This document shows, in pieces, positions 19,241-42,691 of a DNA stretch of 42,837 bases. Both the position numbers and the translations under genes were made by a program. The notes under the pieces were generated by a model. It did no database searches and had not been told where the DNA came from. It was given only the letters and a program-made list of their open reading frames with translations. The stretch comes from a virus, in IMG/VR virus record IMGVR_UViG_3300020497_000005, positions 1 through 42,837 of that record, one strand, 5' to 3'. Numbering within the stretch: the first letter of the stretch is position 1; each line of letters opens with the position of its first letter.

Positions 19241-20602
19241 TTAGAACCCTAGTTCTGACAAATCAAAATCATCAAAGTCGTCATCACCGTAGTCGTCGTT
19301 ATCTTCATCATCGGAACCCATTTTTTCATCATATTCGTCTTTTTTCAAATCCTCAACGATTTCATTTACCATTCTTTGGATAAATTCACCACCTTTTGGG
19401 TCACCTTGTAAAATTAATTTAGCAACTCTCATAAATTCTGGTGCCGATAATTTTGAAAATCTAACAAATAAGTAATGTTGGATATGTTTCATATCATCGT
19501 CAAATAATTTGTCAGGATATGATTCAATAAATTTTTCCCAAAATATTGGTCCTAATCTAGAATCCCATACCTCAGCAGGTAAAGTATCTTCAGCTCCTAA
19601 AACCATTTCAGCTTGTCTTGGGTCATCAGGTAAACCGTGAGTACCAAACACTTCATAAACACCTTTCACTAATTCGTGAATTAATAAAGGGAATGTCATT
19701 GCTTTCGCTTTAACTGTTGGTGGGTCAGTTTCTTCATCAACCTCACTTTGACCCATTTGACCACCACCTCCGGCTGCCATACCTTCCATATCCGGATATA
19801 ACCAATATAAATGTTCCATTAATGATTGGGTTACACCATAAAGATTTAATAAATTAGGGTCTAGTCTATTGATTTCGTCGCTAAGTAAAACATACATATG
19901 TCCACCTTTAAACGCTGCTCCTTGTATAAGAGAATTAATCATTCTTCTTTTTGCCTTCTCTAAATTAAATTGTTCAAATTCGTCGGCAAAATCTTGTAAT
20001 TCTTCACTATGTTCTTCAGCCTTTTTAAACGCGTCTTTAACTTCTTCTTCACTAGGTTGTGTCGGTTCCGCTTGCATTCCTTGAGCAGCACCCATTGGTC
20101 GTTGGATAAGTTGAGCATCAAATTGTAAAGACCCTTCAGGTATACCCAATTCTTTTTTAACTAAATTAACTGCCAAATTCTCAAGATATTCTTTATTTTG
20201 AGATTCAACTCTCATAATTTGTTGTAGACTATTCATTACGGTTTGCATAATGTTCATCATAGGGTTATTTCCTTGTATAGCGGAAGTATCACCCAAGTAA
20301 CGTCTTACTTTATCAACAGAGTCTTTAAAACGCTTTGAGGAGATAACCTCAATATAATCAGTATCACCATCTTTTGGTAATGCTGGATGTTCAGCGTAAG
20401 GAGTTTGTCTTGAAGTTATTTTTCTCTCAATACCTGGTTCCATTCTTTCAGGACCTTCATAACTAATTGGAGCCTCTTTTAAATTAGATTTAATTTCGTT
20501 TAAAATTGACTGTTCTCTTTTTGTTAAACCTTCGTTAACTAATTTTTTTTCTAAATTCGCCTTTGATTTCAATATCTTTTCCATTTTTAAATTTACACTC
20601 AT
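19241..20602 (-). CDS. Unrecognised conserved-type phage protein upstream of terminase
   Basis: This 453-residue protein has a helical charged N-terminus, a central region rich in Gln, Met and Glu (about residues 110-220), a more globular part (residues 225-400) with EINRLDPNLLNLYGV and KAMTFPLLIHELVKGVYE, and a very acidic Asp-rich tail ending DFDLSELGF. No catalytic motif or known domain is seen. The start overlaps the upstream stop as TAATG, so it is translationally coupled. The position before terminase suggests a head-completion or packaging role, and the acidic tail could act as a docking peptide. These are inferences. It does not look like a T4 small terminase (gp16), which is much shorter. 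Confidence 0.6.
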   Translation of the reverse strand: MSVNLKMEKILKSKANLEKKLVNEGLTKREQSILNEIKSNLKEAPISYEGPERMEPGIERKITSRQTPYAEHPALPKDGDTDYIEVISSKRFKDSVDKVRRYLGDTSAIQGNNPMMNIMQTVMNSLQQIMRVESQNKEYLENLAVNLVKKELGIPEGSLQFDAQLIQRPMGAAQGMQAEPTQPSEEEVKDAFKKAEEHSEELQDFADEFEQFNLEKAKRRMINSLIQGAAFKGGHMYVLLSDEINRLDPNLLNLYGVTQSLMEHLYWLYPDMEGMAAGGGGQMGQSEVDEETDPPTVKAKAMTFPLLIHELVKGVYEVFGTHGLPDDPRQAEMVLGAEDTLPAEVWDSRLGPIFWEKFIESYPDKLFDDDMKHIQHYLFVRFSKLSAPEFMRVAKLILQGDPKGGEFIQRMVNEIVEDLKKDEYDEKMGSDDEDNDDYGDDDFDDFDLSELGF

Positions 20603-21531
20603 TACCCTTTAAGTTTAATACCTATTTCATTAAAAGACAACCAACTTGGTAAATTCTTTTTAATTGCTTTCGGAGCTGGTTTAGGACCTGGTTTAGGACT
20701 ATATGGTGACCCCGGTTTTTTAGGTTTTGTTCCCGGTTTAACCGTTGGTCTTGCCGGAGCAATTTCAGGAGATTGTTCACCAATTTCTTTTTTCGCCTTT
20801 GGAGCTGGTTTAACACCAGGTTTAGGTTTGTAAGGAGAATCAGTTCCCGGTTTTGTTGTTGGTTTAGTTTTTGGTTTTGCCGGAGCAATTTCTGACCCTT
20901 CATCTAAAAGACTTAAAAAATCTTTTTTACTCATTTTTGGGGTAATGTGTTTCTCAACTAATTTTGTAATTCTATTTTCTAATTCACTTACAAATTTAGG
21001 GTTTGGTTGGACTTGTCCTACTTTATTTGACATAATTTTAGTGTGTGCGTTTTGTACCATATCTAAATAACCTTCTTTAGTTTCCGTTTTCTTTTCAGGT
21101 AGTTTGGCAAAGTTAGTCTTTTTTGAGAATTCATCCGCCATTTTACACCATTTTTTTTGTTCTTTGGTTTTTCCGTCACCACATTTAGAGAAGAAATATT
21201 TTTGTTGTTTTTTAGATTCAAATTTTTCATCTACTTCTCCTTCAACTGTTTCATCTTTTTCAGACACAACCGTTAATTTTTTAGTTGCCGGGTCTATACT
21301 CATTGGAACACCTTTTTTAGACATCAAATCTTGAGCAGCTTTTCTATCAGCATCTACCGCTGGGTCAAATGTAGTTGTTGTTGAGGTTTTTGTGACCGAT
21401 TCTTTAGTGTCTTTTTTAGATTCCACTAATTTACCAAACAATAGATTAACTTGAGATTCAGTCAAATTTTCTAAAGTGGATGGTTTTAATCCGTGACCAA
21501 TTAATTTTAATTTTTTTTGATTAGTGTTCAT
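20602..21531 (-). CDS. Unrecognised protein with Pro-Lys-rich duplicated C-terminus
   Basis: This protein has 309 residues from the chosen start (an alternative ATG at 21549 adds six). The first 200 residues are polar and helical, with KKQQKYFFSKCGDGKTKEQ as a more structured piece containing two Cys. Residues 225-300 are two copies of a unit of about 37 residues beginning EIAPA(K/R)P and ending KPAPKA, rich in Lys and Pro. This is a basic, extended linker that could bind DNA or another virion protein. The later start is preferred because it overlaps the preceding gene by only 11 bases. It is coupled by TAATG to the next gene. Its function is unknown; the company is late virion genes. Confidence 0.55.
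   Translation of the reverse strand: MNTNQKKLKLIGHGLKPSTLENLTESQVNLLFGKLVESKKDTKESVTKTSTTTTFDPAVDADRKAAQDLMSKKGVPMSIDPATKKLTVVSEKDETVEGEVDEKFESKKQQKYFFSKCGDGKTKEQKKWCKMADEFSKKTNFAKLPEKKTETKEGYLDMVQNAHTKIMSNKVGQVQPNPKFVSELENRITKLVEKHITPKMSKKDFLSLLDEGSEIAPAKPKTKPTTKPGTDSPYKPKPGVKPAPKAKKEIGEQSPEIAPARPTVKPGTKPKKPGSPYSPKPGPKPAPKAIKKNLPSWLSFNEIGIKLKG
20655..20892 (-). repeat. Two-copy in-frame duplication in the Pro-Lys-rich protein
   Basis: Two diverged copies of about 115 bases encode matching units (EIAPAKP...KPGVKPAPKA and EIAPARP...KPGPKPAPKA), indicating an internal tandem duplication. Confidence 0.65.
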
Positions 21532-29143: not shown

Positions 29144-29554
29144 GGGGATGACCGGTATTGATTGGTATTATTAATTATTCGGGGCACGTAGTGAGATGTT
29201 CTCTATCACTTAAATCTATGGGTAACAAAATTCTAAATGGCAACATTTTAAACAAAATGGCTCTAGTAGGTCTTGTACGTCAAGATGAGCTTGTGAACGT
29301 AGCGTAAGCAAACACACATTAGGGTCGGTGGACAGATACCCAGTAACAGGAGTCCAATAAGGTGTAATACCACCCGAAGATGTATTAGGAGTCTCGTTCA
29401 GGGAGCTACTTCAACACAAGTGAACCCGACACAGTTATTGGTAACGATGTTAAAATAGGAACCAAATATTTGTCAGTTGAGAATTAATTGAATAAACGTG
29501 TAGTCCTTAATTTTTAAGGTAAACAAGAAAGGGGTTCGATTCCCCTCATCTCCA
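29144..29554 (+). ncRNA. ssrA: Transfer-messenger RNA (tmRNA)
   Basis: This 411-nt RNA has a tRNA-like domain at its ends: the acceptor GGGGATG (29144-29150) pairs with CATCTCC (29547-29553) over seven pairs, with discriminator A at 29554, and the T-arm AGGGG-TTCGATT-CCCCT lies just before. The 3' CCA is not encoded (CTG follows) and must be added. The 5' end GGGGATGACCGGTATTGATTGG matches bacterial tmRNA starts. A tag reading frame, probably resuming at GGC 29239 and ending at TAA 29305, encodes 22 residues that begin GNILNKMALV and end DELVNVA. After it come further hairpins consistent with pseudoknots. tmRNA charged with alanine enters stalled ribosomes with SmpB and adds a degradation tag. 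A perfect host-type promoter lies upstream and a terminator downstream. smpB is encoded 0.5 kb away on the other strand. Confidence 0.93.
29239..29307 (+). other. tmRNA tag-peptide reading frame
   Basis: Twenty-two sense codons run from GGC to GCG, followed by TAA. The resume codon GGC is placed about 21 bases after a possible pseudoknot and fits the Gly start of Bacteroidetes tags such as GENNYALAA. A later GGT (29269), preceded by CTAGTA, is an alternative that would give a 12-residue tag. The C-terminal residues VNVA differ from the usual LAA. Confidence 0.6.
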
Positions 29555-29580
29555 CTGGTGAGTCCCATCACCTCCACACA

Positions 29581-29610
29581 AAAAAGAGACCTAAATGGTC
29601 TCTTTTTTTA
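29581..29610 (+). terminator. Terminator of the tmRNA gene
   Basis: AAAAAGAGACC and GGTCTCTTTTT pair around TAAAT, followed by a T-run. It lies 26 bases after the mature tmRNA 3' end. Confidence 0.85.
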
Positions 29611-29625
29611 TTGATAATCACCAAT

Positions 29626-29649
29626 AAAAAAACCACCCGAAGGTGGTTT
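29626..29649 (-). terminator. Terminator for the minus-strand membrane protein gene
   Basis: On the minus strand AAACCACC-TTCG-GGTGGTTT is followed by a T-run. It faces the tmRNA terminator and ends the unit at 29674-30018. Confidence 0.8.
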
Positions 29650-29673
29650 GTTATCAGTTCAAATGTTTATTTT

Positions 29674-30018
29674 TTAATCTTTTAATACTTGTTTATCCCC
29701 AACCGGAGATGTAAATTTATTTGTTAATTTATCTAATCTTGAATCAAAAATTCTATATGTGTCGTTGATTGTCTTATTGATATACTGATTTATTTCAGTA
29801 TGTAATCTATTAACCCTATCAACCTCACCATCTATACGACGATTAAGAGTGTCTCCTTCTCTATTTATCTCATTAAAGATATGTCCTTGGACTTGTTCTA
29901 ATTGCTTACATTTATTTTTTAATCTGTTAATCTGAATGCACATTATAACCATAACCACAACTCCCAGTACCCCGAGAACCAAACCTATACCCATAATGAA
30001 CGATGTTAAATCTACCAT
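29674..30018 (-). CDS. Small membrane-anchored coiled-coil protein
   Basis: This 114-residue protein has one strong membrane segment near residues 7-28 (MGIGLVLGVLGVVVMVIMCIQI), a short basic stretch, and then a helical coiled-coil-like region of about 60 residues (HIFNEINREGDTLNRRIDGEVDRV). It has no lipobox and few cysteines. The architecture is that of a signal-anchored protein with a soluble helical domain, as seen in inner-membrane spanin subunits or lysis regulators, but no family is recognised. It lies between the tmRNA and smpB genes with its own terminator. No host-type promoter is evident close to its start. Confidence 0.6.
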   Translation of the reverse strand: MVDLTSFIMGIGLVLGVLGVVVMVIMCIQINRLKNKCKQLEQVQGHIFNEINREGDTLNRRIDGEVDRVNRLHTEINQYINKTINDTYRIFDSRLDKLTNKFTSPVGDKQVLKD

Positions 30019-30070
30019 AATTTCTTTTTTTTATTTGTTTATTATTGAACTGATGATTAAATATAATAAA

Positions 30071-30096
30071 AAAAAGGGACTATTTCAAGTCCCTTT
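30071..30096 (-). terminator. Terminator overlapping the smpB stop codon
   Basis: On the minus strand AAAAGGGACT pairs with AGTCCCTTTT around TGAAAT and is followed by TTTT. The stem starts inside the last smpB codons. Confidence 0.8.
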
Positions 30097-30517
30097 TCAT
30101 ATCTCTCTCTATGTCCCTCTCTTTAATTGAGAATCTTTTATCGTGTATTTTCTTCCCTTTGGCAAGAGCAATTTCCATTTTAATTAATCCGGTGTCGTTT
30201 ATGAAGACGCGATAAGGAACGATTGTGGTACCGTTGATTAACTCATTCTCCAACTTAATAAGTTCTTTTCGTTTGGCTAATAGTTTTCTATCCTTTACGG
30301 TCTCGTGGAACGACCCAAACCCATAATCGGAGATGTTCATCCCCTTTATAAATAACTCCCCGTTATTAAAATAACAATACCCTTCAGAGATGGATACCTT
30401 CCCCTGACGAATGGACTTTACCTCTGAACCAACTAGTTTGATTCCAACAATTAGTGTCTGTAGGAATGAATACTCAAACTTGGCTTTCTTATTGACTATG
30501 TTTATTGATTTTTTCAT
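30080..30517 (-). CDS. smpB: SmpB, tmRNA-binding protein
   Basis: This 145-residue protein is the obligate partner of tmRNA, binding its tRNA-like domain and filling the decoding site of stalled ribosomes. SmpB signatures are clear: NKKAKFEYSF at the start, VGIKLVGSEVKSIRQGKVSISEGYC, ELFIKGMNISDY, RKLLAKRKELIKLE, GTTIVPYRVFIN, IALAKGKKIHDKR and the basic C-terminal tail. The frame is open further upstream, but the start at 30517 is set by homology and by a perfect host-type promoter whose -7 element ends four bases before this ATG, so the mRNA should be leaderless. Finding smpB next to a phage tmRNA gene strongly suggests that both work as a matched pair. It is followed by a terminator that overlaps its stop. 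Confidence 0.95.
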   Translation of the reverse strand: MKKSINIVNKKAKFEYSFLQTLIVGIKLVGSEVKSIRQGKVSISEGYCYFNNGELFIKGMNISDYGFGSFHETVKDRKLLAKRKELIKLENELINGTTIVPYRVFINDTGLIKMEIALAKGKKIHDKRFSIKERDIERDMKRDLK

Positions 30518-30521
30518 AGGA

Positions 30522-30551
30522 CAAAGATAATATAAAAATTGATATAAACAA
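30522..30551 (-). promoter_or_regulatory. Bacteroidetes-type promoter of smpB, leaderless
   Basis: The minus strand shows TTG (30551-30549), a 19-bp spacer, TATCTTTG (30529-30522) and then TCCT before the ATG at 30517. Confidence 0.85.
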
Positions 30552-30582
30552 AAAAAGGTGATACAAATTAATGTACCACCTT
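30550..30582 (-). terminator. Terminator of the large ncRNA
   Basis: On the minus strand AAGGTGGTACA pairs with TGTATCACCTT around TTAATT, followed by TTTTTTT. It ends directly at the -33 element of the smpB promoter. Confidence 0.85.
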
Positions 30583-31465
30583 CTTGGCTTAATACGATGA
30601 GAATACTCGTCTTATTGAGAATCTTCGGAAGGATTATTGTTTCCCTTCTTTTCCACATTCTTTTGGAATGTAATCCTCAGTGATAATTGGTTAGACCAAT
30701 CACTCCTTGAGTCGCAAACTACTCTCTTATTACTACACTCTCTTTAATCTTGCGAACTAATTAATCCTTGCGGGATTAGAGGTTTTTGGTAAGAATACAC
30801 ATCAACTTGCGGTTTTTGTGTGCTACGGACATCCCGTAACTAAGTAATCACCTATCATTTACGACTATCAGACACTTTTGCTTTTTTCTGTTTAGTTTTT
30901 CACCATATTGAAAATAGTAATTGTGTTGTGGATGTGTCGAAGAAGGGGTCTGATATAAGCTTTGTTATCTTTTGAACAACAAAATACTAACCTCCTCCGT
31001 GTAATGTCCCCATTACGAAATTTCAAGTGTAGTTCATATTAACATCTTGGTAGATGTTTGATAGGGATAAAATCGACACCACTCGTTCTTTATCTTACCT
31101 TTCGGTTTTAACTCAACTCTAATTTTGGAACCCGCAATTACACATTTGGAAATATGTTTCTTACTTGATTCCTATGGGTTATTTTTATTGGTGTTCCCAC
31201 CTCAACCGGACAATCCACATTGCCAAGTTAGTATTCCATTTCCCTACGAAGTTATCCTCGGTACTACAGGACTACTAATATCCCACTTGCTTACTCGAGT
31301 TCGGTTTCCCAAACCACAAAATCACTAACACAAATGATTTCATTTTATCCCCGTTTCCGGGATTATTTAAAGATGATAAGCCACCTATTATCTTTGATAC
31401 AACACCGAAGTGTTATAATGGATAATCTAAAATTTCTAAGAACGTCTTTAAGGTTTCCCTTAATT
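30553..31465 (-). ncRNA. Large structured non-coding RNA, about 0.9 kb, family not identified
   Basis: About 910 bases lack any credible protein gene but are framed by a perfect host-type promoter (31472-31501) and a terminator (30550-30582) on the minus strand. The predicted transcript is dense in hairpins with stable tetraloops, all read on the minus strand: AACAC-TTCG-GTGTT (31414-31401), CCCG-GAAA-CGGG (31361-31350), ACC-GAAA-GGT (31106-31097), AACATCT-ACCA-AGATGTT (31058-31041), GTAATG-GGGA-CATTAC (31016-31001), TAATCC-CGCAA-GGATTA (30778-30762), ATTGGT-CTA-ACCAAT (30700-30686) and ACATTC-CAAAA-GAATGT (30671-30655). It lies between tRNA-like genes and smpB. Very large phage RNAs near tRNAs are known (GOLLD, ROOL). 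This may be such an RNA or a new family; I cannot match it by eye. Confidence 0.8.
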
Positions 31466-31528: not shown

Positions 31529-31619
31529 TGGTATCAACGGGACTCGAACCTGTGACACAGGGTTTTTCAAAACCCTTGCTCTACCAAGGGAAATAAATCT
31601 CCCACTGAGCTATAATACC
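31529..31619 (-). tRNA. tRNA-Phe(GAA)-like gene with a D-loop insertion
   Basis: The ends form a seven-pair acceptor (GGTATTA with TGATACC, one G-T) and discriminator A. The T-arm is ACAGG-TTCGAGT-CCCGT with one A-C mismatch, and GTGTC fits the variable loop. The D-arm, GCTC...GAGC, contains an extra stretch of about 17 bases that itself folds (GGGAG-ATTTAT-TTCCC). The anticodon stem AGGGT/ACCCT encloses eight bases, TTTGAAAA, one more than normal; GAA would make it tRNA-Phe. CCA is not encoded. It may be a functional but unusual tRNA, or a decaying one. It shares a promoter with the permuted element just upstream. Confidence 0.6.
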
Positions 31620-31628
31620 ATATAAAAT

Positions 31629-31707
31629 AATGTGGGTGTATGCTCTACCATCTGAGCTACGGATTTGAAACCGGAGGGATTTGAAACCTCGACACAACAC
31701 CCACACC
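31629..31707 (-). ncRNA. tRNA-like element with circularly permuted order
   Basis: On the minus strand a nine-pair closing stem (TGTGGGTGT 31705-31697 with ACACCCACA 31639-31631) encloses, in order, a T-arm-like hairpin (GAGG...CCTC with TTCAAAT, 31690-31674), an acceptor-like hairpin (CGGTTTCAAATCCG, 31673-31660), the bases TA, and a canonical D-arm (GCTC-AGATGGTA-GAGC, 31657-31642). In a normal tRNA the D-arm comes first and the T-arm last, so the 3' half precedes the 5' half. GGTTTCAAATCC occurs twice, 16 bases apart. The closing stem would correspond to an extended anticodon stem. No anticodon can be assigned. It could be a permuted tRNA, a tRNA mimic or debris. Confidence 0.45.
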
Positions 31708-31735: not shown

Positions 31736-31766
31736 CAAAGATAATACATTTATTTTAATCTGTCAA
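31736..31766 (-). promoter_or_regulatory. Bacteroidetes-type promoter of the tRNA-like pair
   Basis: The minus strand shows TTG (31766-31764), a 20-bp spacer and TATCTTTG (31743-31736). The start near 31729 lies about 22 bases before the permuted element. Confidence 0.75.
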
Positions 31767-31784
31767 ATATTTTTTGAAATTTTT

Positions 31785-32014: not shown

Positions 32015-32147
32015 TGTGTCGTACAGGATTCGAACCTATAACCATGCGTAATCTTCTACTTCAACTCATTGTACTTTTGAGTCCGTCACAGCTTGTTAGT
32101 ATAAGTAGCTTTTCTTATACTGTGTCTACCAATTCCACCAACGACAC
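32015..32147 (-). tRNA. tRNA-Leu-like gene with an enlarged anticodon/variable region
   Basis: The ends form a perfect seven-pair acceptor (GTGTCGT with ACGACAC, discriminator A). The D-arm TGGTGGAATTGGTAGACAC is that of tRNA-Leu, and the T-arm ATAGG-TTCGAAT-CCTGT is canonical. Between D- and T-arms lie about 78 bases instead of the 35-45 of a class II tRNA: a seven-pair hairpin (GTATAAG with CTTATAC, eight-base loop containing GCT), then a long stretch with another hairpin (ACTCA with TGAGT). No standard seven-base anticodon loop with U33 is found, so the anticodon is unassigned. CTCAAAA within the second half would suit Leu(CAA) but lacks a paired stem. CCA is not encoded. Confidence 0.55.
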
Positions 32148-32156
32148 ATATTTTTG

Positions 32157-32249
32157 TAGTCAGGAGAGGAATCGAACCTCTCTACAGGGAGCTACCCGTC
32201 ATCCATGACCTTCCATCGGACTCGAACCGACCTTGTATCCAACCTGACT
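32157..32249 (-). tRNA. tRNA-like gene with a second T-arm-like hairpin inside
   Basis: The acceptor AGTCAGG/CCTGACT is perfect, with discriminator A, and the T-arm AGAGG-TTCGATT-CCTCT is in the right place. The interior, however, holds another T-arm-like hairpin (GTCGG-TTCGAGT-CCGAT) where the D-arm should be, then GTCAT-GG-ATGAC and GGG-TAGCT-CCC. TAGCTC, normally at the D-arm, therefore follows a T-arm sequence, as in the permuted element at 31629-31707. No anticodon can be assigned. It lies nine bases upstream of the Leu-like gene and is probably co-transcribed with it. It may be a scrambled or non-decoding tRNA. Confidence 0.45.
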
Positions 32250-34899: not shown

Positions 34900-35934
34900 C
34901 TACAACTTTTTAAACTCCGGTCTGATTAAGTTCCATATGATTTCAGAATAATCTTTTTTATCGAACATCCTAAATAATATCCCTGATAAATGTTTATTTT
35001 GTTGTGACACCCACTCAGCGTATTCTTTTCTATCTGTGATAGGTTCTTTGTCGTTATATTTACCATACATTTTACCATCAAATTTTTTACCAGCATCTTC
35101 AGATATTTGGAAATAAAAATACCTTAATTCTTTTACATAATTTTTAATTTTGGTGTAAAATTCATCCGGAACATCTTTTAATAATTCCATCACATCTTCA
35201 CCATTTTTTAGATATTCCCAAACTCCGGTTGTTGATACATTGGTCATAATTTTATGAAGACGCAAATACTCAACACCTTTAACTTTAACTCTATCCCCAT
35301 TTGAAAACTTCACCACAAACCCTTCTTGGTTGTTTTTAACCATTTCTTTAAGTTCTTTGAAGTCCTTAATACCATCGTATTTTTTAACCACATCAAACCC
35401 GTATTCTCTCCACATTTCTACATCATATTCTTTTCCGTTTTTATCAAAGGTTCCCAATAGGACTAATCCTTCGTAATCACCGTAATCTACTACCACGCGA
35501 TTCTGCGGGAATAAAATTTCAAAACAGAAAGTCAGATGTCTGAACATAATATCTGTATTATACTTTTTAAGGAGTTCAATACCTTTAATTGATTGGTCGG
35601 AAGTAAATGACCCACGAGTGGCTACCACCCATTGACCCTCATACCAAAAAACCAACAAAAGTGAACCATCCATTTTTTCCCACACCTCAAAGTTTTCAGT
35701 TGGTTCAAATTTCCCTTCTTCAATATTGAAGAATTTGTTAAAACCTCTTGCAACAATATTACCCTTATCATTTGTCACCAACCCCCGACAACTTAATGTT
35801 ATTTCGTCCCAATAATTTTCATATTGTGTTGTTTGACTATAATTCCATATAATCAAAGGAAGAGTTGGGTGATTTTGACTTAATAACCACCCATCATCTC
35901 TATATTTAACTAATGTATCTAAATTAATCTCCAT
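34900..35934 (-). CDS. RNA ligase, T4 Rnl1-like
   Basis: This protein has 344 residues from the chosen start, MEINLDTLVKY. It is an ATP-dependent RNA ligase of the Rnl1 family, which in T4 reseals tRNAs cut in the anticodon loop by host nucleases. The nucleotidyltransferase motif I is EKMDGSLLLVFW, with adenylated Lys near 87. Later motifs are visible: CFEILFPQNRVV (motif III region), EGFVVKF (motif IV) and RVKVKG (motif V, Lys-x-Lys). An earlier ATG at 35961 would overlap the GIY-YIG gene more. T4 Rnl1 is 374 residues. It lies downstream of a GIY-YIG homing endonuclease and of a second RNA ligase, and with the kinase-like gene at 39405 it could form a tRNA repair pathway. Confidence 0.85.
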   Translation of the reverse strand: MEINLDTLVKYRDDGWLLSQNHPTLPLIIWNYSQTTQYENYWDEITLSCRGLVTNDKGNIVARGFNKFFNIEEGKFEPTENFEVWEKMDGSLLLVFWYEGQWVVATRGSFTSDQSIKGIELLKKYNTDIMFRHLTFCFEILFPQNRVVVDYGDYEGLVLLGTFDKNGKEYDVEMWREYGFDVVKKYDGIKDFKELKEMVKNNQEGFVVKFSNGDRVKVKGVEYLRLHKIMTNVSTTGVWEYLKNGEDVMELLKDVPDEFYTKIKNYVKELRYFYFQISEDAGKKFDGKMYGKYNDKEPITDRKEYAEWVSQQNKHLSGILFRMFDKKDYSEIIWNLIRPEFKKL

Positions 35935-36712
35935 AATAATACTCCCATTTATATCCACCACAATGTTTCATTGACCCATTTAATACTTTACTAACATTTT
36001 TATATGTTGTTGTGGTTCTAATTTCCCATACCGATGAATAGATTTTTATAATTTCATTGTCCTTGTTTTTTTGAACAACTTGTTTTTTTGTTTTACTATC
36101 CCCAATTTTTTTCTTTGTAATTTCGGATAATATTTTTCCTTTGTGAAATTCTGAAATTTCTTTTTTTCTTTCTTCAGAATGTTTTTTTCCAAACATTGGA
36201 TTTTTATCCCCAATTTTAGTTACGCTTAATTTATTTTTAGTTTCATCACTTCGTTTCCTACCTAAATGAGTTTTTTTACAATTTTCAGACATTTTTTTTC
36301 TTTCATCATCAGTGATTACTCTATTTTTTGCGGATTCTCTAACTTTACTTAACCATTGATTATAATCTTCCTCAGAACGCCAAACTCTTTTTTGTCCCGG
36401 CATAGAACCTGAGTCACCACCTTCAGAAATGTTTAATAAATTACAACCTTTTTCTTGGTAAGAAGAAATATATTTTTTTTCAATTTCCTTCCAATCGTTT
36501 TCTTCAACTACGTCAATAAGTTTAATAATTGGTTTTAAGTCCTCTTTCAATAGAGATTTAATCCAAGTATTTTTATGGGTTGTTTTATTATCAGAATTTT
36601 TAGCTTTAGATATATGATTATTTAATCTAACACTAAGTTTTTTAACAGTTTGTCCTACATACCTAATTTCATTAGTTTTTGGGTCAATTAATACGTATAT
36701 ACTATGTTCCAT
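35924..36712 (-). CDS. GIY-YIG homing endonuclease with NUMOD repeats
   Basis: This 262-residue protein has the GIY-YIG core at residues 4-25 (IYVLIDPKTNEIRYVGQT, with Val replacing Gly in the first triad), R28 in SVRLNNH and a Glu in IEKKYIS, which together form the nuclease site. NUMOD3-like repeats follow (GRKRSDETKNKLS, GDKNPMFGKKHSEERKKE), then a C-terminal DNA-binding HTH segment (SSVWEIRTTTTYKNVSKVLNG). That architecture is typical of phage free-standing homing endonucleases related to I-TevI. A late-type motif (36726-36733) lies 13 bases upstream. It splits the early gene cluster and overlaps the downstream RNA ligase gene. Confidence 0.88.
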   Translation of the reverse strand: MEHSIYVLIDPKTNEIRYVGQTVKKLSVRLNNHISKAKNSDNKTTHKNTWIKSLLKEDLKPIIKLIDVVEENDWKEIEKKYISSYQEKGCNLLNISEGGDSGSMPGQKRVWRSEEDYNQWLSKVRESAKNRVITDDERKKMSENCKKTHLGRKRSDETKNKLSVTKIGDKNPMFGKKHSEERKKEISEFHKGKILSEITKKKIGDSKTKKQVVQKNKDNEIIKIYSSVWEIRTTTTYKNVSKVLNGSMKHCGGYKWEYYYGD

Positions 36713-36725
36713 AATAACCTTTTAT

Positions 36726-36733
36726 TATAAATA
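36726..36733 (-). promoter_or_regulatory. Putative late-type promoter motif before the GIY-YIG gene
   Basis: The minus strand reads GAGATATTTATAATAAAAGG, with the core ending 13 bases before the ATG at 36712. Confidence 0.45.
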
Positions 36734-36782
36734 TCTCGTAATTATGTTTTCGTATTGAATTTACTCAGTATAATTTTTTAAT

Positions 36783-37148
36783 TTATAATGTGGAACAAAA
36801 TATTAATGTTCCGATTAATTGTATGTAATGTAATACTTGGTCAAATCCAACCACCACAAATCCGTTGTGGAAATCTTGTTTATCCCAATATGGTTTTCCA
36901 ATTCTACTAGTTACAAAATCTGTAATCCAATGACAAATGAATGTAATGACGGAGAATATTAAAGCAATTCTAAAATCACTCAAATAAAACCAAGATGCCA
37001 ACAACCACATTATGGAATAAACCCCAACGTGGTATGTTAACCATTTAAGACTTGTACTTTTTCCGGTCGCTTGTTCGTGTGTCTGTAATCCAAAATCAGC
37101 TAAGAAGTGAATTAACAATACAAATATTAATGTTGTAAATGATATCAT
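36783..37148 (-). CDS. DUF3307-like membrane protein
   Basis: This 121-residue protein has about four hydrophobic segments. It contains LIHFLADFGLQTHEQA near the N-terminus, VITFICHWITDFVTSRIGK in the middle and FDQVLHYIQLIGTLIF at the end. The pattern of an early HFLADF, a middle HW..D and a late DQ.LH matches DUF3307, a small membrane family common in phages and of unknown role. The conserved His and Asp could bind metal. It is separated by one base from the upstream gene and belongs to the same leftward operon as the Rnl5-like ligase. Holin-like or membrane-modifying activity is possible but unproven. Confidence 0.75.
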   Translation of the reverse strand: MISFTTLIFVLLIHFLADFGLQTHEQATGKSTSLKWLTYHVGVYSIMWLLASWFYLSDFRIALIFSVITFICHWITDFVTSRIGKPYWDKQDFHNGFVVVGFDQVLHYIQLIGTLIFCSTL

Positions 37149-37149
37149 A

Positions 37150-37473
37150 TTACCAAGTGTATCTAATGTATTCTATTTCAAATTTATCCCAAACTCGGTA
37201 AACAGCCTCTACAAATGGAATGGACCACTCATCACCTTCTTCGGTAATATATTCAATCACGTAATCCATTCTTTCACCACAATCATAACGAACTATTGTA
37301 TCGTTTATAACATCTGACTGAAAATACCTCAACCAAATATGCCATAGGTCTTTATATTCACCACCAACTAACTTGTGATAATCTCTGAAGTATTGTTCTT
37401 CAATACCCATCTCTTTACAGATTTCTTTTCGAATATCAAACCAATCATAAAATTCTATCGTGTGTTTTTCCAT
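37150..37473 (-). CDS. Unrecognised acidic aromatic-rich protein
   Basis: This 107-residue protein is rich in Tyr, Trp, Asp and Glu (for example IEFYDWFDIRKEICKEMGIEEQYFRDYHKLVGGEYKDLWHIW). It has no recognised family, signal peptide or membrane segment. The start overlaps the stop of the Rnl5-like ligase gene by one base (TAATG), so translation is probably coupled. Phage proteins of this kind are usually small host-takeover factors, but no function can be assigned. Confidence 0.6.
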   Translation of the reverse strand: MEKHTIEFYDWFDIRKEICKEMGIEEQYFRDYHKLVGGEYKDLWHIWLRYFQSDVINDTIVRYDCGERMDYVIEYITEEGDEWSIPFVEAVYRVWDKFEIEYIRYTW

Positions 37474-38567
37474 TACTTCTCGTTTAATAAGAATTTGTTA
37501 CTAATAACTTTGAATGAGATTGTTCTATCGTAACTTCTAATTACAACACCTTCTCTATCAAAGTTTGGATTCAAATCTGATTTACCATCAGCCATCTTTA
37601 ATAACTCATCAATCGTGTCCGGTAAATGGAAATGTGTGTCTAACACCGGTACGGTCTCTATACCTAATTCAGTCACCAGTGATTGAAATAAAGATAATGA
37701 ATCATACTCTTGTAAATCAATATGAAACAGGTTGAAGAATCTTACGGTTTGTCCTTTGATTTTATATGGGTTCCCTTGGATACCCTCACCAATAAGTTCT
37801 CCTTGAATAGAGATGTTCGCGTTCTCACCATATTCTCTCATTTTGTTTTCCAAATCCAATTCACGAGCAACTTTCCAAAATGTGTTACCTTCAGTTTCCA
37901 ATAACTCCAAATTACGAGAACAAACACCAAACTCTCCGTTATTGTAGTAGAATGTTGAGGAAGAACCATCTAATTTTTCTGTTACATAGTAAGTATGTTT
38001 CTTCATTTCTTCATACTCGGATGCCAAGTTCTGAATTCTCTCTTCATCAGTTTTACGAATGAAACTTGGGAACATACCTTTAACCTTTCCGGCTAGTTCT
38101 GCTGGAATTGGTGGTTCGTACTTAACGATTCCCAATTTTTCAGTCACATCAGTTCCCGGAACCAATTCAATCATATCTGATGGTGAAATAACGGTTCTAT
38201 TTGGTTCCAAAGCAACATTCTCATTTAATAACGTTTCAGAAACTCTATAACCATAACCTTCAAATAAAACAGATAAAGGTAAAATTAATCCTTGGGATAC
38301 CTGCCCGCGAAGTTTCACGGTCCTCAAACGGAATCCTTCTTCATCACCCATTTTCTTATATGAACTCTTACGTAAGAATTCAAATTCTTCTCTGATTGGT
38401 AAGAATGAATCAATCTCACAATATACAACCAAATCATTTATTCTGTGACCAACTTCTTTTGCCACAACCACTTTCCAACCATCCACGATTGCCAATTCAA
38501 TCATATCGGCCCCGGGAATTTCTTGAATATCACTAATTCTTCTAATACTAGCTAACTTTCTTTCCAT
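37473..38567 (-). CDS. RNA ligase with N-terminal OB-like domain, Rnl5 (DraRnl)-like
   Basis: This 364-residue protein has an N-terminal segment (MERKLASIRRISDIQEIPGADMIELAIVDGWKVVVAKEVG) that is the OB-type module seen in Deinococcus Rnl5-like ligases, which seal 3'-OH/5'-phosphate nicks in RNA. The ligase domain has motif I TEKLDGSSSTFYY with the adenylated Lys near 198, NISIQGELIGEGIQGNPYKI (motif IIIa region), FDREGVVIRS (motif IV) and SFKVISNKFLL (motif V). It is distinct from the Rnl1-like enzyme at 34900-35934, so the phage has two RNA ligases of different families. It sits between small genes joined by TAATG overlaps, in an early-type operon started by the promoter at 39370-39399. Confidence 0.88.
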   Translation of the reverse strand: MERKLASIRRISDIQEIPGADMIELAIVDGWKVVVAKEVGHRINDLVVYCEIDSFLPIREEFEFLRKSSYKKMGDEEGFRLRTVKLRGQVSQGLILPLSVLFEGYGYRVSETLLNENVALEPNRTVISPSDMIELVPGTDVTEKLGIVKYEPPIPAELAGKVKGMFPSFIRKTDEERIQNLASEYEEMKKHTYYVTEKLDGSSSTFYYNNGEFGVCSRNLELLETEGNTFWKVARELDLENKMREYGENANISIQGELIGEGIQGNPYKIKGQTVRFFNLFHIDLQEYDSLSLFQSLVTELGIETVPVLDTHFHLPDTIDELLKMADGKSDLNPNFDREGVVIRSYDRTISFKVISNKFLLNEK

Positions 38568-39404: not shown

Positions 39405-39797
39405 TTACAAAGAAATTTCAAATCTTTTTCGCATTAGTTCTAACTTATCTTCCGGAACCCCGTGTTCATTGACTCCACCGTGTCTGTTTTCTACAATTAT
39501 AGAGAATACTTTATATCCGTATTTTGATGCCAAGTCATAATATGGTTGCATTTCCCACTCTTGTGTGAATGTATTTGATACCACAACTTTATGTTCGTAT
39601 TTCATTAAAAAATCAACTTCTTCTTGACACCAAGAGTGAGCATCTTTAATTTCAGATGGTTTGAAATTATAATTTCCATCTCTATCCACAAAAAACATAT
39701 CAGCTTCTTTAATATACCCTCTATTACCGGCAATAGATTTAGCCAATGTTGATTTACCACTTCCTGGTAACCCTCTTAATAAAAATAACTCTTTCAT
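39405..39797 (-). CDS. P-loop kinase-like protein (polynucleotide-kinase/zeta-type fold)
   Basis: This 130-residue protein begins with MKELFLLRGLPGSGKSTLAKSIAG, a Walker A loop (residues 9-17) of the type found in T4 polynucleotide kinase and related small kinases. DMFFVDRDG and VVVSNTF follow as acceptor and Walker B-like strands, and MRKRFE contains basic residues of the lid. It lacks the phosphatase domain of T4 Pnkp. In the company of two RNA ligases it could supply 5'-phosphates for repair of cleaved RNA, with the phosphatase step coming from another protein. Other small P-loop kinases cannot be excluded. It is one base from the next gene. Confidence 0.7.
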   Translation of the reverse strand: MKELFLLRGLPGSGKSTLAKSIAGNRGYIKEADMFFVDRDGNYNFKPSEIKDAHSWCQEEVDFLMKYEHKVVVSNTFTQEWEMQPYYDLASKYGYKVFSIIVENRHGGVNEHGVPEDKLELMRKRFEISL

Positions 39798-40081: not shown

Positions 40082-40744
40082 TTATTTTCTTTTTCGACCT
40101 TCGTCGGTTATCATATCATCTGTGTGATGGTCATCGTCCATATTTGATTTAATTTCTCTCAATTTTACAATCTTAATAACATTGTCTAATGAGTATGGTA
40201 CAAAAAACAATGAACCATCAATACCAACATCCATTCTACGACCCTTACCAAAGATTTTACCCGTTGGGAGATGTACATGTCCATGGAGGTGAATATGTCC
40301 TTTATTTAGTCCATCCCAAGAATCTATAGGGTAGTGCATTAAAACTAAAGTGTCAAATTTATACATCAATTTTGTGTAATGATTAACACTCGTAAACAAT
40401 TCCTGACAATCACCTCTATTATTTTCAATGTGATGGTCGTGATTACCTAATATAAGGTGAATCTCTTGACACACAATTCTATCTCTAAAAATTTTTACAT
40501 TTTCAAAACCACCAAAACTCCAATCACCCAAGTGAATCAAAACATCATCTTGACCAACAACACTATTAATACCGTGTACAATAGCGTCGTTCATCTCCCC
40601 AATATTACTAAAATCTCTTGTTTGGTGAATTGGAACACTTCCATCCGGAAGTCTCCATTCGGTTACACCACGACATATATTCTTATGCCCAAAGTGTGTG
40701 TCGGATATAATCCAAACTTTTCTATCGTTATCTATCTTAATCAT
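40082..40744 (-). CDS. Calcineurin-like metallophosphoesterase
   Basis: This 220-residue protein shows the dinuclear metal signature of the calcineurin family: ISDTHFGHKN (D-x-H), HLGDWSFGG (GD), LILGNHDHH (GNHD), LMHYPID and HIHLHGHVH (GHxH). Such enzymes cleave phosphomonoesters or diesters, including 2',3'-cyclic phosphates in RNA or cyclic nucleotides. Near a kinase-like protein, two RNA ligases and a cyclic-phosphate-type receiver, end-healing of RNA is an attractive role but is inferred. The start overlaps the upstream gene by eight bases. The C-terminus is charged and His/Asp rich (DDDHHTDDMITDEGRKRK). Confidence 0.88.
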   Translation of the reverse strand: MIKIDNDRKVWIISDTHFGHKNICRGVTEWRLPDGSVPIHQTRDFSNIGEMNDAIVHGINSVVGQDDVLIHLGDWSFGGFENVKIFRDRIVCQEIHLILGNHDHHIENNRGDCQELFTSVNHYTKLMYKFDTLVLMHYPIDSWDGLNKGHIHLHGHVHLPTGKIFGKGRRMDVGIDGSLFFVPYSLDNVIKIVKLREIKSNMDDDHHTDDMITDEGRKRK

Positions 40745-42220: not shown

Positions 42221-42691
42221 TTATTTAATAGGTATTCGAACCCTAACACAGGTCTCAGGTTGTTTTTCATTTTTTAAGAAATTGTTAACCCAACCACAAA
42301 TATTGTGGGCTCCAACAGGATTTGCTGAATGAACATAAATTAACGGGAAAATAAATTTATCATTCTTTTTTTCGTTTTTAGTCATATTAATTCTTTCCGG
42401 AAATACATAATAGAATTGATTTACTAACCACTTAGCGGCATCATAACCAGTTTTCTCATTAATATTGTTATAGTCCAAAGTGTAGTTTGGAGAAACATTA
42501 TTAAAATACTCTTTCATTGCAGAATCACCTAAATCGTGGTCCAAAGATATAATATCAATATTCTCCAACCCAATCTTATTAACTTGTACAACAAATTCAT
42601 CGTAATCTCTAACTACAATCCAATCATCACCAGTAGGAGTTCTCACATCATCAAGATATATTCTACAAGGTGGTTTCATATTATTTTCCAT
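42221..42691 (-). CDS. Cyclic-phosphate-processing receiver-like (cREC) protein
   Basis: This 156-residue protein has the receiver-like pattern described for the cREC family: RIYLDDVRTP at the start, WIVVRDYDEF, IISLDHDLGD in the middle, then KTGYDAAKWLVNQ and a C-terminal IYVHSANPVGAHNI. The conserved acidic residues and the HSANPVG motif differ from signalling receivers, and comparative genomic work proposes action on cyclic phosphate ends of RNA. An insertion near residues 60-80 and 105-120 makes it longer than usual. It agrees with the RNA ligases, kinase-like protein and phosphoesterase nearby. A -7 element TATATTTG lies 17 bases upstream. Confidence 0.75.
   Translation of the reverse strand: MENNMKPPCRIYLDDVRTPTGDDWIVVRDYDEFVVQVNKIGLENIDIISLDHDLGDSAMKEYFNNVSPNYTLDYNNINEKTGYDAAKWLVNQFYYVFPERINMTKNEKKNDKFIFPLIYVHSANPVGAHNICGWVNNFLKNEKQPETCVRVRIPIK

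Follow-up and report, generated by a model that had tools for sequence, protein, structure and literature searches.

Two neighbouring tRNA-like elements, here called C and D, in the 42.8-kb virus record IMGVR_UViG_3300020497_000005 (the window, meaning the whole stretch of 42,837 nucleotides that was analyzed) are very probably real genes for non-decoding tRNA mimics, judged from their sequences. Both join good tRNA ends to abnormal interiors, as a sequence-only reading of the window had proposed and as the sequence, a structure scan and the relatives of both elements now bear out. By its sequence, D belongs to a conserved RNA family; C stands alone in sequence and its design is widespread (C-type elements, below). 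The window encodes phage head, portal and terminase proteins, and is probably part of a large phage whose host group is the Bacteroidetes. On the minus strand, from 32249 to 30594, the order is D, C, a small open reading frame, two further tRNA-like elements (B and A) and a GOLLD RNA.

Structure of elements C and D

Element C (32015-32147, minus strand) is an anticodon-less tRNA-Leu-like RNA. It had been described as Leu-like and lacking a standard anticodon loop, which stands; the distance between its D- and T-arms, given before as about 78 bases, is 82 nucleotides (nt) in the scan. The acceptor stem of 7 base pairs (bp) is perfect (GTGTCGT/ACGACAC) with discriminator A, and the 5-bp T-arm (ATAGG-TTCGAAT-CCTGT, 32023-32039) has a TTCRANT loop. 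The D-arm (GTGGAATTGGTAGACAC, 32122-32138) is of the Leu type (A14, A15, G18G19) by the identity rules in a passage of PMC9976931, and by sequence its GG is available for T-loop pairing. All features checked for leucyl-tRNA synthetase (LeuRS), namely A73, A14, A15-U48 and G18G19, were present in the sequence. Immediately 3' of the D-arm, an 8-bp hairpin (32098-32121) was predicted with the 8-nt loop AAAAGCTA and no U33-type anticodon loop, and a second interior hairpin, of 6 bp, at 32063-32083. The minimum free energy (MFE) was only modestly better than that of shuffles (z = -1.63).

In element D (32157-32249, minus strand), alignment and RNAalifold place a second T-loop arm (GTCGG-TTCGAGT-CCGAT, 32215-32231; bases mostly fixed by the search pattern) where a GG-bearing D-arm would be, so that the earlier suggestion of a T-arm-like hairpin replacing the D-arm was upheld. 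The acceptor stem is AGTCAGG/CCTGACT (7 bp), and the true T-arm (GAGAGG-TTCGATT-CCTCTC, 32164-32182) is marked by compensatory changes among relatives; a 7/5 or a 6/6 split of acceptor stem and T-arm is possible. The place of the anticodon arm is taken by a short hairpin (GGG TAGCT CCC, 32187-32197), which lies outside the search pattern and whose stem is invariant in 23/23 sequences. A 5-bp anticodon arm with a 7-nt loop and U33 was found in neither C nor D, by sequence or by fold, and both were absent from Rfam RF00005 reports even at E up to 5. ARAGORN did not call C and labelled D as a 94-nt tRNA-Pro(TGG).

Conservation of element D

A pattern of 22 core bases of D matched 43 viral contigs; these bases were fixed by the pattern, and their invariance carries no weight. 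The sequences came from 27 distinct contexts including the window, which gave 23 distinct elements after removal of 4 duplicates, and all 23 were aligned. The RNAalifold structure comprised the acceptor stem, the T-arm, the second T-loop arm and the short GGG/CCC hairpin, and 5 of its 23 predicted pairs varied on both sides yet stayed paired (2 in the acceptor stem, 3 in the T-arm). At four acceptor and T-arm pairs 2/23 sequences were unpaired, where misalignment is possible; the second T-loop arm and the GGG/CCC hairpin were invariant, so neither is proven by covariation. The reality of D is argued from its conservation and compensatory pairs, and not from its own folding energy.

A covariance model of D (R1) scored above 100 bits in 4/48 phage records, the window counted, with 120.8 bits in the window, which had been part of the training set. 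Of the matches scoring 20-31 bits, many were C-type elements. The interiors of C and D had been called scrambled; neither element resembles a scrambled pseudogene, the D core being present in 43 viral contigs with compensatory acceptor and T-arm pairs. Conservation, on which the sequence-only reading had made its proposal depend, was found for D, A and B, and in C for the design and not for the sequence.

A class of C-type elements

Elements of the C design were recruited with a 3'-end pattern, the AGTCAGG version of which matched at least 120 viral stretches. The pattern fixed A73, the 3' acceptor strand and most of the T-arm, and our own filter fixed part of the 5' end; class totals are lower bounds, biased to that 3' end. 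In the 5' acceptor strand, which lies outside the pattern, exact AGTCAGG was found in most of the 165 matches listed, and in 5 there was none within one mismatch. A structure scan requiring acceptor stem, D-arm and T-arm gave 310 elements in the loci then in the set, 131 canonical and 179 non-canonical, and none in Markov sequence (first order, 1.36 Mb, one replicate) built from the same loci. A number of the 38 non-canonical scan elements with other acceptors were ordinary tRNAs misjudged by the rule, for example Cys tRNAs; among loci added later the C-like design does occur with other acceptors, as it does in C itself.

The final set held at least 176 distinct AGTCAGG-type elements of 63-191 nt in 127 loci, with tRNA-Leu-like ends and hypervariable interiors. 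The AGTCAGG-version pattern also matched 9 genome contigs, 8 of which hold such an element by eye, and 5 of these 8 are titled Bacteroidetes or a group within the Bacteroidetes. As a test for a copied host tRNA, the AGTCAGG acceptor was sought in 9 genomes (few for the purpose), where it occurred in such elements only, in 4 genomes. A blastn search with one element as query gave no named phage or plasmid record covering 80% of the query. RNase P tends to prefer T at base -1, and this base was T in 148/176 C-type elements. ARAGORN missed 136 of the 176 and gave an ordinary three-base anticodon to 29 of the remainder, so that annotation by this program overlooks most C-type elements and assigns ordinary anticodons to others.

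Anticodon arm and LeuRS features in the class

The C-type class shows no clear excess of anticodon hairpins. A 5-bp stem with a 7-nt loop and U33 was found in 11/173 interiors, against 6.7 in shuffles (range 2-13) and 104/124 in canonical controls. At the elbow the bases are retained: A14 was present in 165/176 elements, and bases 15 and 48 were A-T in 140, A-A in 11, A-C in 10, G-C in 6, T-A in 5, G-T in 2, with two others. The association between bases 15 and 48 was significant (Fisher P = 1e-5, A/G by T/C table, 176 elements, relatedness uncorrected); the value for all non-canonical elements was 5e-8, in a set that held misjudged ordinary tRNAs. The full LeuRS set (A73, A14, A15-U48, GG and the following A) was carried by 115/176 C-type elements, 8/111 canonical non-Leu tRNAs and 16/20 canonical tRNA-Leu. 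For comparison, a passage of PMC9976931 reports that E. coli tRNA-Leu can be charged after loss of both its anticodon arm and its variable arm, needing A73 and the contacts between D- and T-loop, and lists A15-U48, G18G19 and A20a as essential; A14 is named in a further passage.

Variable interiors of C-type elements

Interior length in the scan ranged from 0 to 209 nt, some interiors being near 20 nt. The 163 elements longer than 75 nt fell into 134 interior types, of which 20 had at least two members. Similar interiors were found in 24 pairs: in 16 pairs both 120-nt flanks fell below the top identity of random stretches (0.65), and in the others both flanks were alike (3), one flank was alike (3) or one flank was unmeasured (2). 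Since similar interiors occur between unrelated flanks, it appears that a C-type element is moved, or maintained, as a unit. Modules also appear to have been exchanged between elements, as read by eye in locus L167, whose D-loop insert is common to L106 (with a close form in L201) and whose interior is common to L208 and L222.

A natural tRNA scaffold would account for part of this pattern: the tRNA-like ends would serve only for protection and maturation of the RNA, with the activity residing in the variable interior, for instance as an aptamer or a regulatory RNA against targets of the host or of rival phages. The exchange of D-loop inserts and interiors and the recurrence of interiors in unrelated flanks suit such a role, as does hypervariability with weak structure (mean z = -0.67, 131 tested). 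So does a helix abutting the T-arm, found in 61/134 interiors against 42 in shuffles, and so do interior compensatory pairs, 1 to 4 in each of 5/7 clusters of three or four members (no null model); in the other 2/7 clusters the sole compensatory pair sits in the D-arm. A mere scaffold would not need LeuRS-type bases to be retained, however. Compared with shuffles, the interiors (132 tested) showed no excess of similarity, sense or antisense, to nearby phage DNA, and their sense frames were not more open than the six-frame shuffle average. We regard this as an unlikely account of the elements. Two origins of the interiors were rejected on the same counts, as copies or antisense of nearby phage DNA and as coding sequence or fragments of captured genes, although a few had looked coding on inspection. 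The antisense frames were open more often, which fits a purine-rich strand.

Competition with tRNAs as the proposed function

As the explanation that best fits the whole, C and D may be non-decoding tRNA mimics that compete against genuine tRNAs for host enzymes acting on tRNA, a reading of the sequences that we hold a little short of probable. Host RNase P and RNase Z would cut the ends and CCA would be added, and the processed RNAs would occupy enzymes that read the tRNA elbow and acceptor. By sequence, C-type RNAs match what has been published as the minimum for charging by E. coli LeuRS, an enzyme that does not need the anticodon arm, and from this comparison their engagement by LeuRS is a tentative but serious possibility. 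Because enzymes of this kind ignore the anticodon side, that side would be free to carry varied, weakly structured RNA modules. The most likely use would be during infection, in competition with tRNAs for a defence nuclease or for LeuRS itself, and this would run alongside the phage RNA-repair genes, the YrlA-like element B and GOLLD.

The sequence-only reading had suggested one shared process or function, for example decoys for tRNA-cleaving defence enzymes. tRNA mimicry by recurring elements remains of this, and a single family does not, as different designs stand side by side. Neither C nor D has an anticodon loop in which anticodon nucleases such as PrrC could cut, so that a decoy role would need competitive inhibition, as suggested for YrlA; for YrlA, competitive inhibition of an anticodon nuclease is proposed in the relevant part of PMC7790460. 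A decoy against tRNA-cleaving defence is plausible beside the RNA-repair genes and would nevertheless be an unlikely role. Doubtful, if rather less so, is the wider proposal that large Bacteroidetes phages carry an undescribed modular RNA class. Its members would be an anticodon-less tRNA-Leu chassis, with leucine added by the LeuRS of the host, displaying exchangeable hypervariable modules at the anticodon-arm site and, in some cases, in the D-loop. They would pass from phage to phage as cassettes and act against host defences directed at tRNA, in the company of YrlA-like mimics and the GOLLD cage.

Several observations weigh against competition with tRNAs as the function, or limit its reach. 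The LeuRS idea does not cover D, as D is without a Leu D-arm, and the MFE of D alone was no better than shuffles (z = -0.46). The constancy of A73, the 3' acceptor strand, the T-arm and part of the 5' end in the C-type class is not evidence, being fixed by the pattern and filter, and a few of the 176 elements are ordinary tRNAs, such as the Lys tRNA in L077. Own promoters for C-type elements were dropped as a candidate, with matches upstream of 4/172 elements against 42/3798 random places and no excess that stands out. No relative of the C interior was found among the loci compared, and viral_contigs, which may omit records very close to the window, held nothing that matched the C 3' end exactly. 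The Rfam tRNA model gave many C-type relatives 31-45 bits, with a cut-off of 29 (four loci scanned), and a stem closing the interior base was found in 39/134 interiors against 22.5 in shuffles (range 12-33). Because of these scores and the closing-stem excess a minority of C-type elements may be tRNAs with inserts, and some may be intron-bearing or degraded tRNAs.

Splicing as a general account takes the same scores and closing stems as its support: the insert in the anticodon loop would be removed via phage RNA ligases to leave a working tRNA, and two RNA ligase genes and an AAA_33 gene lie nearby. Yet 95/134 interiors have no closing stem, complete 5-bp/7-nt arms (11/173) are close to chance and far from the canonical controls, some interiors are only near 20 nt long, and D has no room for an anticodon arm. 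Intron-bearing tRNAs are in our view a very unlikely explanation of the class.

In favour of decay, C is unique and is missing in the close relative L005, where D adjoins the next gene directly (identity to the window of 98.9% across 1.8 kb to one side, 92.8% across 0.5 kb to the other). Phage tRNA arrays often lose genes. The interiors would then be the wreckage of tRNA-Leu, with ends kept alike by gene conversion. Such decay does not sit well with the conserved D core and its compensatory changes in acceptor stem and T-arm, with the association of bases 15 and 48, with interiors alike between unrelated flanks, or with A and B conserved as neighbours, and it is scarcely a likely origin of these elements.

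Comparison with known systems

Transfer-messenger RNA (tmRNA) shares with C and D an acceptor and T-arm like those of a tRNA, and the substitution of other sequence for the anticodon side. It differs in that C keeps a Leu D-arm and the phage has a separate tmRNA; in an Rfam scan at E up to 5, nothing in C and only a 17-nt fragment in D matched tmRNA. Ponchon and Dardel reportedly engineered a tRNA scaffold with another RNA in place of the anticodon arm; both designs replace that arm, the C-type being natural and hypervariable. There is a likeness also to the minimal E. coli tRNA-Leu (laboratory constructs described in a passage of PMC9976931), which shares with C-type elements the acceptor, D-arm, T-arm, A73, A15-U48 and G18G19 and has no anticodon arm. 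C-type elements differ as natural phage genes, known here from sequence, with a variable 0-209 nt replacing the lost arms.

According to Chen et al. (2014), cited in a passage of PMC12282133, bacterial Y RNAs of the YrlA type (RF02553) occur in mycobacteriophages too. The likeness to them lies in phage tRNA mimicry, in B with its permuted T-arm, stub and D-arm, and in the Ro60-like genes of some related phages; C and D differ in being unpermuted with an open acceptor end, and B falls below the Rfam cut-off. GOLLD beside phage tRNAs, as described in part of PMC12286853, shares the neighbourhood and is a separate RNA class. Among titles and abstract openings of open-licence papers, none was found that deals with naturally occurring phage RNAs of this kind, tRNA-like and anticodon-less with a variable interior.

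If the proposal is true, the elbow and acceptor of tRNA serve phages as an RNA chassis for general purposes, outside translation. The minimal tRNA-Leu and the engineered tRNA scaffold would then have a counterpart in nature, with about 134 natural interior types to test. The proposal would also give a concrete handle on the roles of GOLLD and of phage YrlA-like RNAs.

Neighbouring elements A and B, GOLLD and Ro60

Four odd tRNA-like elements had been counted within 0.75 kb, and A and B proved to be real as well. Element B (about 31630-31706, minus strand) is a YrlA-like permuted tRNA mimic, with T-arm, acceptor stub and D-arm arranged as in YrlA within a closing stem (fold z = -3.02). It matched Rfam RF02553 at 40.1 bits (E = 1.4e-6), under the gathering score of 69, with a model that gave weak matches also in 9/14 control genomes. 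The closing stem shows a compensatory difference, GTGGGTGT/ACACCCAC against GTGGACGT/ACGTCCAC. B was found in 20 contigs, 6 of which also have D, and a second YrlA-like element, absent from the window, is next in several relatives. The Bacteroidetes promoter consensus is TTTG-N19-TANNTTTG; a probable promoter of this type, TTTG-N20-TATCTTTG, lies upstream of B (31736-31767, minus strand), and a similar stretch is found upstream of B in relatives.

Element A (31529-31619, minus strand) is tRNA-like and was reported by Rfam RF00005 at the gathering score. By eye it has a hairpin insert in the D-loop (31588-31603, minus strand), the stem of which varies on both sides among relatives, and an 8-nt anticodon loop, often without U33 in the relatives. 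A directly followed B in 11/14 contexts listed. Inserts like that of A were seen by eye in the D-loops of tRNA-Glu-like genes beside GOLLD in L002 and L003, with an insert-free copy at L003 8837-8909. Downstream of A in L207, L208, L210 and L059 is a conserved stretch (TTCTGTGATAAGATAGCAGATAGACC...) that may be another structured RNA. A separate tRNA-like family (L132:836-992, L071:5302-5469, L088:12256-12431) has a long insert with GGGTTGACCAC in addition to D-loop inserts.

The conserved 3' part of GOLLD RNA lies at 30594-30999 (minus strand; Rfam RF02032, 320.6 bits). GOLLD was found in 13/50 records searched; 46 of the 50 had been recruited by the C-type pattern, and these gave 10. Ro60-like (TROVE) matches were above the cut-off in 4/50 records, with one more below it, and in 2/15 records of an overlapping set. 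One follows GOLLD RNA within about 0.2 kb in the L115 record (G048, 29192-30610), and another is about 1.1 kb from a YrlA-like element, identified by eye, in the L011 record (G008, 19563-20974). The RNAs might on this account be cargo or partners of the adjoining GOLLD cage or of a Ro60-type protein, and tRNAs do sometimes sit within the GOLLD linker according to part of PMC12286853. GOLLD was lacking in 37/50 records, however, and a TROVE match in 45/50 (records may be fragments), and there was no TROVE match in the window or its nearest relative G002; this partnership is very improbable.

Phage context

On the minus strand, beyond D, are two RNA ligase genes (34900-35961 and 37473-38567, together spanning 34900-38567), the AAA_33 gene (39405-39797), a metallophosphoesterase gene (40082-40744) and a gene with a cyclic-phosphate-processing receiver domain (42221-42691). 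A match to freshwater-1 RNA was seen at L046:4124-4186 (70.1 bits, cut-off 72). The phage tmRNA (29144-29557, plus strand; Rfam RF00023, 73.7 bits) and the SmpB gene (30080-30658, minus strand; Pfam SmpB, E = 1.4e-45) sit close together in the window, and as the SmpB domain begins only at residue 54, the true start is probably downstream of 30658. With the frame read by eye, the tmRNA tag would end ...ELVNVA, the usual ending being ALAA.
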